Assembly (NCBI GenBank): GCA_022486585.1
Contig: JAKVKI010000007.1
Location: 1 to 64,000, forward strand
Direction of reading: 5' to 3'
Length of the DNA stretch: 64,000 bases
Source: Megasphaera sp.
GTDB lineage: Bacteria; Bacillota; Negativicutes; Veillonellales; Megasphaeraceae
Positions 5,960 to 61,279 of the stretch are shown in pieces. Within the stretch, counting starts at the first letter, position 1. Every line of letters begins with the position of its first letter. Below the pieces are notes generated by a model that saw only the letters and a list, made by a program, of their open reading frames with translations, ran no database searches and was not told where the DNA came from. The position numbers and the translations under genes were made by a program.

Positions 5960-5987
5960 TGTAAACACCTCGCTTGAAAGAATTATG

Positions 5988-6034
5988 AAATAATAATTAT
6001 TATTTATTATATCATGTAAGTATAATAAAATCAA
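5988..6034 (-). promoter_or_regulatory. promoter with palindromic operator-like site
   Basis: Read on the minus strand, TTGATT (6034-6029), a 17-bp spacer and TATAAT (6011-6006) make a good promoter for the Cys-rich gene. Immediately downstream, at 6005-5988, is a perfect 18-bp palindrome, AAATAATAATTATTATTT. It would cover the transcription start and resembles the A/T-rich operators of the Fur/PerR family, but the regulator is unknown. Confidence 0.6.
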
Positions 6035-6067
6035 TAAAAAGTCATTCTTGACAAATGGCAATAATAC

Positions 6068-6096
6068 TTGTACTTCCCTATAAAATCCTGTACAAT
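6068..6096 (+). promoter_or_regulatory. promoter of trmL
   Basis: TTGTAC at 6068-6073 and TACAAT at 6091-6096 with a 17-bp spacer, 24 bp before the trmL start. It is divergent from the Cys-rich gene promoter. Confidence 0.6.
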
Positions 6097-6120
6097 AACC
6101 TTTGGAGAGTGAGTGATAAC

Positions 6121-6609
6121 ATGCATATCGTTATGGTAGAACCGGAAATTCCCGGAAATACGGGTAATATTGCCCGATTGTGTGCAGCCAATCATATTAC
6201 GCTGCATTTAGTGAAACCGTTAGGTTTCTTATTGGATGACAAGCACTTAAAAAGGGCCGGTCTGGATTATTGGTCTCTTGTCGATGTGGTCGTTCACGAA
6301 AATTTTGAAGAAGTACAAGAAAAATATAAAGGACATCGCTTTTTTTATTTGACGACAAAAGCAGAACAATGCTATGCAGATATTCAATTTCAGCAAGATG
6401 ATCTGCTGGTTTTTGGCAAAGAAACGAAAGGCTTGCCGGAAAGCCTGTTGAAACAGTACCCAGAGTCTTGTTTCCGCATTCCTATGGCAGACAAAGCCCG
6501 TAGTCTGAATTTATCGAATTCCGTAGCGATTGTATCCTATGAAGCCTTGCGGCAGCTCGGATTCCCCGATATGGCCCGCAGTGGCATCGGTATTAAAAAT
6601 TTAAAATAA
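6121..6609 (+). CDS. trmL: tRNA (cytidine(34)-2'-O)-methyltransferase
   Basis: A 162-residue SPOUT-class methyltransferase. It begins HIVMVEPEIPGNTGNIARLC, the classic TrmL/YibK N-terminus. The SAM-knot residues follow as VFGKETKGLPESLL (near residue 98) and RIPMADKARSLNLSNSVAIV (near residue 122). The enzyme 2'-O-methylates the wobble base of certain tRNA-Leu species. The ATG at 6121 is used rather than upstream in-frame starts, because those would lie inside the promoter. It is followed by ylbF-like and murB genes in the same direction. Confidence 0.93.
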   Translation: MHIVMVEPEIPGNTGNIARLCAANHITLHLVKPLGFLLDDKHLKRAGLDYWSLVDVVVHENFEEVQEKYKGHRFFYLTTKAEQCYADIQFQQDDLLVFGKETKGLPESLLKQYPESCFRIPMADKARSLNLSNSVAIVSYEALRQLGFPDMARSGIGIKNLK

Positions 6610-6627
6610 AATCAACGAGGTGCAATA

Positions 6628-6969
6628 ATGGAAATATACGAAAAAGCAGATGAACTGGCGCAGGCCATCCATCAGTGTAAAGAGTATCAGGAGTTAGTCG
6701 CTGCCGGAAAAGAATTGGCAAAAGATGAAAAGACCAAGAAAATGGTTCACGATTTTCTCTTTTTGCAGGCTGAATTAGCCTATGCACAATCCATGGGCGG
6801 CACGACGAAAAAGAAATTTGAAGAATTAAATCGCATGGCTCCTCTTATTCAGAGCAATCAACAAGCGTCTTTGTATCTTGCGAAATATAAGACTTGGCAG
6901 GATATGGTAGGTAAAATTTATCAAACTATTCAATATTCAATGGCAGAAGGAATGAGCATTCTTGATTAA
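6628..6969 (+). CDS. YlbF/YmcA family protein
   Basis: A 113-residue, mostly alpha-helical cytosolic protein of the YlbF family: an ADELAQAIHQCKEYQEL N-terminus and a central QAELAYAQSMGG segment. In Bacillus, members (RicF, RicA) form a complex that modulates RNase Y and development; whether that applies here is unknown. GAGGTG precedes the ATG at 6628. The stop codon overlaps the TTG start of murB, implying coupled translation. Confidence 0.82.
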   Translation: MEIYEKADELAQAIHQCKEYQELVAAGKELAKDEKTKKMVHDFLFLQAELAYAQSMGGTTKKKFEELNRMAPLIQSNQQASLYLAKYKTWQDMVGKIYQTIQYSMAEGMSILD

Positions 6970-7888
6970 TAAATACGCATTGACGAGTTTTGTCTCTCAG
7001 TTAAGCCAGTCCATTGGACAGGACCGGCTCTATCTTGACGAACCCATGAGCGATCATACGACGTTTGCCGTTGGTGGTCCTGCCGATGTGCTGGTTTTGC
7101 CACAGTCAGTCAAAGAAATGTCCCTGACTATCCGGGCTGCCCGCAATTGTGATTTGCCTCTTATGGTATTGGGCGGCGGATCCAATGTCTTGGTCCGTGA
7201 CGGTGGTATTCGTGGTGTCGTCATACAACTTAATAAGATGCAAAAGGTATTGGCGTGTCATGAACGGAAAATTTTAGCCAGTGCCGGCTATATCATGAAG
7301 GATGTGTGCCAATTTGCGCAGCAGAACGGCCTGACAGGGATCGAATTTGCCTGTGGTATACCGGGGACCTTAGGAGGTGCCGTGTTTATGAATGCCGGCG
7401 CCTATGACGGTGAAATGAGCCGTATTGTGTCCCGAGTCCGGACGGTGAACAATCATGGTGGTGTCAGCACGTACAGTGCTCCTGATCTTGGATTTGGATA
7501 TCGGCAAAGCCGTTTTCAAAAATCTCAGGAATTCGTCGTAGAAGTGGAACTATCACTGCAGCGAGGCGATACAAAGGAAATCCAAGAACGAATGGATGAT
7601 TTGATGAAACGCCGGCGCAGCAAGCAGCCGTTGGAAATGCACAGTGCTGGCAGTACGTTTAAACGGCCGCCAGGTTACTTCGCAGGAACCCTTATTGATC
7701 AGACTGGCCTTAAAGGTCTGGCCTGTGGTGATGCCCAAGTATCGACAAAACATGCCGGCTTCGTTGTCAATACAGGACATGCCAGTGCCAGTGACATTTT
7801 GCAGGTCATACATGAAGTGCAAAAACGGGTAGAGCAGGCTCATGGCGTCCATTTGGAACCAGAAGTACGGATTGTCGGCGAAGATTGA
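6962..7888 (+). CDS. murB: UDP-N-acetylmuramate dehydrogenase (UDP-N-acetylenolpyruvoylglucosamine reductase)
   Basis: A 308-residue FAD enzyme that reduces UDP-GlcNAc-enolpyruvate to UDP-MurNAc in peptidoglycan synthesis. The FAD-binding block LPLMVLGGGSNVLVRDGG sits near residues 60-77, ACGIPGTLGGAVFMNAGAYDG near 125-145, and the catalytic-serine segment HSAGSTFKRPPG near residue 225. The likely start is TTG at 6962, with AGAAGGA upstream and an 8-bp overlap with the ylbF-like gene. It lies about 9 kb from the division and cell-wall cluster rather than inside it. Confidence 0.95.
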   Translation: MINKYALTSFVSQLSQSIGQDRLYLDEPMSDHTTFAVGGPADVLVLPQSVKEMSLTIRAARNCDLPLMVLGGGSNVLVRDGGIRGVVIQLNKMQKVLACHERKILASAGYIMKDVCQFAQQNGLTGIEFACGIPGTLGGAVFMNAGAYDGEMSRIVSRVRTVNNHGGVSTYSAPDLGFGYRQSRFQKSQEFVVEVELSLQRGDTKEIQERMDDLMKRRRSKQPLEMHSAGSTFKRPPGYFAGTLIDQTGLKGLACGDAQVSTKHAGFVVNTGHASASDILQVIHEVQKRVEQAHGVHLEPEVRIVGED

Positions 7889-35320: not shown

Positions 35321-35326
35321 GTGTTG

Positions 35327-35553
35327 AGCATGTGCTGTGGTTGCAAGTCGATGCCAGTCGCAGGCAAAGCGATCCACGTAAGGAGACCAAAGCGTCTCTG
35401 ATCATAGTGCGGCCTAGAAGTAAGACCTGCCGCAAAAAGCGAGAGGGCTAGTAGTGGGAGCGGGAACGCCATGAGCGAAGGTCCCAGCAGGCGAGTGTGG
35501 GGGTAAAAACCAGGTCAGACATGCATCAAGCTGTGCTATGCACAGCTTTTTTT
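35327..35553 (+). ncRNA. structured non-coding RNA of about 225 nt, family not identified
   Basis: A consensus promoter, a highly structured body with no plausible reading frame, and a strong terminator (AAGCTGTGC-TAT-GCACAGCTT plus T run at 35528-35553) define a free-standing RNA. The ends pair: GCATGT (35329-35334) with ACATGC (35519-35524), then CTG with CAG and TGGTT with AACCA. Inner hairpins include GAGAC-GTCTC (35382-35399), TGCGGC-GCCGCA (35408-35433) and TGGGA-TCCCA (35455-35486) with a GCG-GGAA-CGC loop. It lacks the sequence signatures of tmRNA, RNase P and SRP RNA. A Firmicutes raiA-type RNA or a divergent 6S RNA are the candidates I would test first. Confidence 0.72.
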
Positions 35554-49487: not shown

Positions 49488-49499
49488 TTTCATCATAAC

Positions 49500-49622
49500 A
49501 CAACAGAGCGTCGAATCCTCGCGAGAGGTACGGGGGACTCAATCTTTTGGGGTGAATCCAGCATAGCTGGAGGGCTGCCTTGGCCTAACCCGTCAGTTAA
49601 CTTCGGAGACAGAGAGGAGCTT
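49500..49622 (+). promoter_or_regulatory. cyclic di-AMP riboswitch (ydaO/yuaA)
   Basis: Conserved ydaO blocks appear in order: TACGGGGGACTCAA (49529-49542), TTGGGGTGAATCC (49547-49559), GGAGGGCTGCC and CTAACCCGTCAGTTAAC (49585-49601), ending in an AGAGAGGAGC purine tract that doubles as ribosome site. The class binds c-di-AMP and generally shuts off expression; cell-wall hydrolases are among its best-known targets, matching the gene 3 bp downstream. No separate terminator is obvious, so the platform may act on translation by hiding GAGAGGAG. Confidence 0.92.
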
Positions 49623-49624
49623 TT

Positions 49625-50377
49625 ATGTGGAAAAAAACAAGTAAGGTAGTGTTATTGGCAGCGTTGATGGCAGTGACTGCGGCCGTACCGGCTGGGGCTT
49701 CGTCGTATACAGTCGGCAATAAAGGTGATGATGTCCTTCTCATCCAAAAACAATTGAATAAATTGGGATACAGAGTAAAGACAGATGGTGTATATTCAAA
49801 AGATACGGCCAGTGCCGTTACGAAATTCCAAAAGAGCAAAAAAATTGAAGCCAGCGGAAAAGTTGGCGGTTGGACCTACTATTTGCTGACAGGCAAGCGG
49901 ACATTATTAGAAAAAGATGCTCCAAAAACGGCAAAAAGTGGTATAAAATATGGAAATGAAACGTCTTATAGTCACTATTCTAAAATGAAAAAATTCGATG
50001 AACATGATGTCATTGGTGATAAATTGGTATCTTCGGCATATAAATATTTAGGCGTGCCCTATGTGTTTGGCGGCAATACACCAGATGGATTCGATTGCTC
50101 CGGATTTACGAAATATGTCTTTTCACACAATGGCATTTGCTTGCCGCGCATGGCTGATGAACAATATTTATTAGGTGCTAAAGTATCGCGCAGAGAATTA
50201 GTGCCAGGGGATTTGGTGTTCTTTACGACCTATGAACCAGGAGTATCCCATACGGGTATTTATGTCGGCGATGATAATTTTATCAGTGCGACTAGCAGTG
50301 GCGGTATTCGAGTAGACAGCTTGAATAGCGGGTATTGGTCTTCCCGGTATGTCGGTGCCAAGCGAGTTCGGAATTAA
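49625..50377 (+). CDS. secreted NlpC/P60 peptidoglycan endopeptidase with PG-binding domain
   Basis: A 250-residue exported hydrolase. Residues 1-25 are a signal peptide (KVVLLAALMAVTAAVPAGAS). A peptidoglycan-binding-1 domain (GDDVLLIQKQLNKLGYRVKT, GVYSKDTASAVTKFQ) spans about 30-90. The NlpC/P60 domain (from ~140) carries the catalytic Cys in PDGFDCSGFTKYVF near residue 157 and His in GVSHTGIYVGDDNF near residue 208. The family cleaves D-Glu-DAP stem-peptide bonds. The c-di-AMP riboswitch upstream ties it to osmotic and wall homeostasis. Confidence 0.95.
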   Translation: MWKKTSKVVLLAALMAVTAAVPAGASSYTVGNKGDDVLLIQKQLNKLGYRVKTDGVYSKDTASAVTKFQKSKKIEASGKVGGWTYYLLTGKRTLLEKDAPKTAKSGIKYGNETSYSHYSKMKKFDEHDVIGDKLVSSAYKYLGVPYVFGGNTPDGFDCSGFTKYVFSHNGICLPRMADEQYLLGAKVSRRELVPGDLVFFTTYEPGVSHTGIYVGDDNFISATSSGGIRVDSLNSGYWSSRYVGAKRVRN

Positions 50378-59801: not shown

Positions 59802-59910
59802 GAGAAATACATCACAGTTATCTACAGAACATGTACGCTACTATTCTGGGCAAGACTAGTGAATTGTTTTCACGACATTTATAGACGACGAACAGCTACC
59901 CATACGAAAC

Positions 59911-60070
59911 TCCGCGACGGCCAGGGGAACCGTAACGACTGCGTGGCGAAAGACGGGCCGGTGAGATGCTGTTATCCAGTGGGTTTCGGCCCATATACAT
60001 GATGCGCCAATGAAAGAAGGGCCCTTACGGACGCCACTTCGCTGTTACGGTACGCCCTGTCCGCCGCGAA
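59911..60070 (+). ncRNA. repeat module A, copy 1 (candidate structured RNA)
   Basis: Nested complementarity closes the module: CAGGG with CCCTG, ACCGTAAC (59929-59936) with GTTACGGT (60044-60051), then GTGGCG with CGCCAC. Inner GGGCC/GGCCC stems enclose a multi-branched centre. Strand and transcription are not proven. Confidence 0.5.
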
Positions 60071-60329
60071 ACGTATACGCCATTTGGATTTCTGAATCGT
60101 GGAAAGACAAAGTCCGTAGATGTGTGCATGTTTTGGCTCCCCACACATGGGGATAAGCAGGGCACTGCATTTGAAGGAGCTTGCGACGCGCAAATGCATG
60201 TGCATCGCTTATGCGTGTTTTCTAAAAGCTGCTGCCGACGAAGGAGGCTGAGGGGTTAGGATAAATATCTCTTTGACAACCAATCATCTGATTCCATATA
60301 CGTGTGATAAATAGCCACACAGACCGGAT

Positions 60330-60489
60330 TCCGCGTCAGCCAGGGGAACCGTAACGACTACGTGGCGAAAGACAGGCCGGTGAGATGCTGTTATCCAGTG
60401 GGTGTCGGCCCATATACATGATGCGCCAATGGAAGAAGGGCCCTTACGGACGCCACTTCGCTGTTACGGTACGCCCTGTCCGCCGCGGA
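60330..60489 (+). ncRNA. repeat module A, copy 2 (candidate structured RNA)
   Basis: Same structure as copy 1, with an additional perfect outer stem TTCCGCG/CGCGGAA. It is preceded by a promoter-like TTGACA (60273) and TATACG (60297) in the spacer. Confidence 0.5.
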
Positions 60490-60748
60490 ACGTGTACATC
60501 ATTTGGCTCCCTGAATCGTGGGAAGACACAGTCTGTCGATGTGTGCATGTTTTGGCTCCCCAAACATGGGGATAAGCAGGGCACTGCATTTGAAGGAGCT
60601 TGCGACGCGCAAATGCATGTGCATCGCTTATGCGTGTTTTCTAAAAGCTGCTGCCGACGAAGGAGGCTGAGGGGTTAGGTCAAATATGTTTTTGACCACT
60701 AATTGTCTGATTCCATATATGCATGGTAAATAGCCACACAGACGGAAT

Positions 60749-60908
60749 TCCGCATCGGCCAGGGGAACCGTAACGACTACGTGGCGAAAGACGGGCCGGT
60801 GAGATGCTGTTATCCAGTGGGTTTCGGTCCATATACATGCTTCGCCAATGGAAGAAGGGCCCTTACGGAAGCCACTTTGCTGTTACGGTACATCCCGCCC
60901 GCCGCGAA
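60749..60908 (+). ncRNA. repeat module A, copy 3 (candidate structured RNA, unit truncated after it)
   Basis: The ACCGTAAC/GTTACGGT and GTGGC/GCCAC stems are kept, but the outer CAGGG/CCCTG stem is weakened. Module B is missing; homology to the other units fades near 60932. Promoter-like TTGACC (60692) and TATATG (60716) precede it. Confidence 0.45.
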
Positions 60909-60932
60909 ACGTGTATGTTATTTAATTTCTTT

Positions 60933-61066: not shown

Positions 61067-61279
61067 ATGAATGCTAAATTGATAAAGCAGTATAAAGATG
61101 TTGAAAACGCATATTTACAAAAATTTGGTGCTAATTCACTTGATAGAGTTATACTGGGTGATCCTCTGCAGGGTTGTAAGAATACCTTTGCCGTCATAAA
61201 ACAACTTGAAACAGCCATACAGACTAACGTGCCTCTTGTACAAGTACCCTTAGAGATATGGAAAGATGTAATTTTTTAA
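61067..61279 (+). CDS. small hypothetical protein, 70 residues
   Basis: I do not recognise it. The sequence MNAKLIKQYKDVENAYLQKF continues with a helical, mixed-charge soluble protein without signal peptide or membrane segment, ending in PLEIWKDVIF. GAGAGGAG is ideally spaced before the ATG at 61067, which supports a real gene. It lies between the 419-bp repeats and the cas operon in the same direction as cas1. A regulatory or accessory role is only a guess from position. Confidence 0.6.
   Translation: MNAKLIKQYKDVENAYLQKFGANSLDRVILGDPLQGCKNTFAVIKQLETAIQTNVPLVQVPLEIWKDVIF

Follow-up and report, generated by a model that had tools for sequence, protein, structure and literature searches.

Does the exactly repeated noncoding array upstream of a type I-F cas1 gene in this 64-kb stretch of DNA (the window hereafter) represent a tandem family of structured RNAs, a non-autonomous mobile element or a component of the adjacent defence locus? 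These three possibilities had been raised in a preliminary description of the sequence. We conclude that the array most probably arose when one composite noncoding unit, itself made of nested REP/MITE-like palindromic repeats, was duplicated in tandem. The object is genuine but fairly ordinary, and its interest lies chiefly in one of its parts, a 74-bp hairpin designated E2.

Layout and period of the array

The region at 59911-60915 was the single tandem array found by TRF in the whole window, with a period of 419 bp, 2.4 copies, 92% matches, 0% indels and a score of 1716. The same 419-bp spacing was returned by a repeat finder. When the region was slid on itself, identity reached 92% at an offset of 419 and was no higher than 32% at the other offsets from 20 to 599. 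Three copies of module A (59910-60071, 60329-60490 and 60748-60909, all + strand) and two of module B (about 60135-60300 and 60554-60719) recur at 59910-60915 far above chance, and the array stops just past the third copy of module A. TRF and the self-comparison thus confirm the exact 419-bp recurrence of these modules within the window. The period had also been called invariant, which holds here but not on contig C44 of the same genome, where one unit lacks both module A and E2 and a copy of module A carries a 1-base deletion.

The "many substitutions" of the preliminary description are unevenly distributed: of 419 sites, copies 1 and 2 differ at 33. The linkers differ at 24 of 132 sites, namely 10 of 62 in linker L1 (60072-60133 in copy 1) and 14 of 70 in stretch L2 (60259-60328 in copy 1), which takes in the variable tail of E1. 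For the modules the figure is 9 of 287 sites (Fisher p = 5e-7, with segments set post hoc). Plain duplication followed by drift would not give such a pattern. This uneven divergence is the strongest argument against a simply neutral array. Constraint on the modules, gene conversion, or recent entry of the modules into an older, already diverged E1 array would each fit.

As had been stated earlier, no reading frame is conserved in the array; the longest open frames of copies 1 and 2 are not shared. Rfam gave nothing in the array at the gathering threshold and just two chance-level matches up to an E-value of 5, and blastn of the whole unit against phages and plasmids gave no match. No description of these elements was found in the open-access literature on Megasphaera-like REPs, Negativicutes spacers or nested palindromes. 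Elsewhere in the window, Rfam RNAs include a raiA RNA (35325-35527), a c-di-AMP riboswitch (49499-49626) and a ZMP/ZTP riboswitch (1799-1876).

Composition and origin of the 419-bp unit

Module B is composite rather than a single RNA: E2 sits inside the hairpin of a dispersed palindromic repeat, E1 (GGCTCCCC..GGGGAGCTGCCG..GGCTGAGGGGTT). The layout of E1 is GGCTCCCC-loop-GGGGAGCTGCCG..GGCTGAGGGGTTAGG, and its tail ends near CTGATTCC. Each E1 hairpin in the window is split by a block of some 74 bp, namely E2. Copy 1 thus consists of the E1 5' hairpin arm (GGCTCCCC..TGGGG, 60135-60152), the nested E2 hairpin (60148-60221) and the E1 3' part (AGCTG..GGCTGAGGGGTTAGG..CTGATTCCATATA, 60227-60300); in copy 2 the corresponding parts are at 60554-60571, 60567-60640 and 60646-60719. 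All are on the + strand, and both E2 copies were delimited with the covariance model R1. Intact E1 without E2 is present on contigs C44, C32, C1 and C27 of the same genome. The left arm of the C32 copy, GGCTCCCCAAACATGGGG, is identical to that of the window copy and the block of about 74 bp is absent, and the alignment places E2 as an additional block directly after GGCTCCCCAAACATGGGG. An E1-like element was also found in another family of the same order (genome G042).

The genome is a 47-contig draft, 83% complete, from which the rRNA operons are missing. The 419-bp unit had 17 matches in it, four of which include module A: the three in the window array and one at the extreme end of C44, where a second composite lies just downstream of secF. 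Five other contigs gave partial matches, confined to the E1 and E2 stretches of module B. Because C44 breaks inside the repeat, further copies may have been collapsed or lost. The C44 unit without module A and E2 adjoins a unit with module A, and in the alignment both of its flanks closely match those of the filled unit. Such a site reflects either insertion of module A elsewhere or hairpin-driven deletion here.

The non-autonomous mobile element comes closest among the three earlier suggestions. It is favored by the dispersal of E1 and E2 and by the presence/absence sites, both for E2 in E1 and for module A in the unit. Against it, no transposase or other mobilizing enzyme is linked to any of these elements and there is no clean target-site duplication at the module A or E2 sites. 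We infer a direction of events in which an E1 repeat would have taken up E2 inside its own hairpin, and module A would have entered the stretch between E1 copies, unless units without it arose through hairpin-mediated loss. Unequal recombination between repeats, or replication slippage, is the simplest mechanism by which the resulting 419-bp composite could then have been duplicated head to tail.

A variant of this history, to which we assign a distinctly lower probability, reverses the order. The E1 array would have come first, module A and E2 would have spread through it by site-specific insertion or gene conversion, and the exact period would be secondary. The greater similarity of the modules than of the linkers is consistent with this order, as are the C44 unit lacking both elements beside one that bears module A and the tandem E1 stretches without module A on C32. 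However, both insertions at the same base in each unit demand a very specific mechanism, and duplication of a finished composite is simpler.

Module A and the cas neighborhood

Module A is a long imperfect palindrome of 162 bp, known from four copies, all in this genome. Its ends in copy 2 read TTCCGCG and CGCGGAA and are decayed in the remaining copies; no other sequence with these ends occurs in the draft genome. The nested stems named in the preliminary description are present and fold. Could module A then work as a structured RNA, or as a hairpin site in the DNA, with selection keeping its tandem copies? Copies 1 and 2 differ at 8 of 162 sites in the module compared with 24 of 132 in the linkers, most predicted pairs are invariant, and module A folded alone does better than most shuffled sequences (z = -2.07, with 9 of 200 shuffles folding equally well). 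On the other hand, none of the 50 predicted pairs shows a compensatory change among the four copies, and several are broken, mostly in copy 3, which is 91% identical to copy 2. Variable sites are not clearly biased against the stems either (9 of 100 paired and 11 of 63 unpaired positions, p = 0.14). There is no promoter-like site on the + strand between 59700 and 61450. Searches for relatives also argue against a functional module A. None was found by blastn among 61 genomes of the order, and a covariance model matched only its own genome among 380 genomes of the class and 398 of the phylum, under fast filters that may lose weak matches. We therefore regard selection on a functional module A as improbable.

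The 19- and 21-mers of module A gave four isolated 19-mer matches against viral contigs and 85k genomes, approximately the number expected by chance and without meaningful extension. Module A was absent from every rRNA operon examined, those of its own genome being missing from the draft. As no relative of module A could be detected beyond this genome, the idea that it is mobile rests on one presence/absence site. It may be a young, species-specific element that exploits the same repeat-rich sites as E2. An integron attC site was considered and rejected, as the stems do not seem to fit the core motif.

The array is followed by a 70-aa ORF (61067-61279), the sole ORF before cas1, in agreement with the small gene and type I-F cas1 reported earlier; the neighborhood also includes cas2-3, a CRISPR array and additional ORFs positioned like members of the cas operon. 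The 70-aa ORF had no Pfam or PADLOC match. The CRISPR array consists of about 23 copies of the repeat GTTTTCCACCGCATAGGTGGCTTAGAAA (5966-7320 of locus L056, contig C7 about 69865-71219). A place in the type I-F CRISPR-Cas locus, as leader, regulator, anti-CRISPR-like element or guide RNA, would account for the position upstream of cas1 with the cas operon and CRISPR array downstream, but it is very improbable: neither the unit nor the 70-aa ORF was found within 1.5 kb of the similar full-length type I-F cas1 of nine relatives, E2 was also absent at these loci, the second composite adjoins secF, and GTTTTCCACCGCATAGGTGGCTTAGAAA lies far downstream of the array and is foreign to the unit. The absence from the relatives' loci and the copy beside secF leave the proposed tie to the defence locus unsupported and make the position near cas look accidental.

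The E2 hairpin, its place in rRNA operons and known repeat classes

In contrast to module A, E2 is a member of a hairpin family with strong covariation. Within the array, only the E2 segment of module B bears out the suggestion of a tandem noncoding RNA family, which fails for module A. The copies that supply the covariation lie elsewhere, mostly in rRNA operons. The first alignment, of 42 copies from relatives, had 18 predicted pairs, 16 of them with changes on both sides. With 60 matches to model R1, which was used for the family searches, 95.2% of cells were paired and 16 of 17 pairs showed double changes. The covariation score was 0.591, compared with 0.167 for shuffled alignments and at most 0.142 when the pairing partner was slid. 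Because the 60-match alignment is fitted to the model, the independent 42-copy alignment is the more reliable evidence. Changes on both sides of a pair (186 cells) far outnumbered one-sided changes (13 cells) among the 60 matches; either strong selection or DNA-level copy-correction of the palindromes could explain this excess.

Within the order, E2 was present in 45 of 61 genomes and in 9 of 13 genera, with up to 51 matches in one genome. The model matched 7 of 398 phylum-wide genomes, all seven within the class, indicating that in the samples searched E2 is confined to this bacterial class. The only Rfam matches at E2 loci were to rRNA and tRNA. In seven of seven operons measured in two genomes (G006 and G035; L108-L111 and L117-L119), the start of E2 lies 8-9 nt upstream of the 23S rRNA 3' end as defined by Rfam, on the same strand. 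In three further members of the class (L102-L104) it lies, by eye, at seemingly the same conserved 23S end. In G001 (L112-L114) copies on the rRNA strand precede 16S by about 90 nt, and further copies are located after 5S. E2 was on the rRNA strand in 10 of 10 rRNA loci examined; two copies near tRNA genes were on the opposite strand (L024 and L029).

E2 therefore has a fixed home in rRNA operons and also disperses. Position, strand and covariation together suggest that its most likely role is that of an RNA hairpin within pre-rRNA, probably one that takes part in processing of the 23S end, while the copies in the array are probably passive passengers. More tentatively, E2 might be an undescribed, class-wide pre-rRNA hairpin turned spreading repeat, a processing signal that became a selfish element.

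Two observations in relatives may be added. In G025, with up to 51 E2 matches, copies form part of larger composites of several hairpins (L120-L125). Neither rRNA nor tRNA is present in the surrounding sequence examined, and the near identity of the copies suggests recent spread. In one G035 operon (L118), the 23S match covers model positions 2382-2925 only, over 1038 bases, which suggests that this gene carries an insertion, possibly an intervening sequence.

These results remove one candidate defence RNA and explain an exact period by repeat biology. They bring forward a covarying hairpin, outside Rfam, whose position at the 3' end of 23S is fixed in several genera belonging to a single class. 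It is directly testable as a 23S processing signal, and its copies away from rRNA would exemplify how a functional RNA hairpin can give rise to dispersed repeats.

Among known repeats, REP, BIME and REPIN elements are palindromes of 20-40 bp tagged with GTAG or CGTC (PMC3733652, PMC3116915). E1 and E2 resemble them as short, noncoding, intergenic and dispersed palindromes, often in composites or clusters. E2 is longer, however, at 74 bp, and the ends of the window copies carry neither tag, GACG occurring in the loop only. The Y1 (RAYT) transposase, PF01797, was absent from the 83% complete draft. Since it is also absent from some E2-rich relatives (G025 and G038), we rejected it as the mover. 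For the terminal inverted repeats of MITEs, the only candidates are the ends of module A copy 2, decayed in the other copies, and an autonomous partner sharing these ends did not turn up in the draft genome. The array resembles a REP or MITE composite in its anatomy, yet E2 lacks the tag, and neither the transposase nor the target duplication of these classes was found.

ERIC, NEMIS, Ype and Efa are intergenic stem-loop repeats (PMC1590033). They share with E2 the larger hairpin, a moderate copy number and likely co-transcription with neighboring genes, but occur in other hosts, and the fixed home at the 23S 3' end is particular to E2. Their sequences are not known to be related to that of E2. 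The intervening sequences and spacer processing hairpins of rRNA (for example PMC4990558) are likewise hairpins within rRNA operons. Unlike intervening sequences, E2 lies in spacers and at the 3' end of 23S rather than within the mature molecule. All of these hairpins, E2 included, would plausibly be substrates for double-strand RNases.
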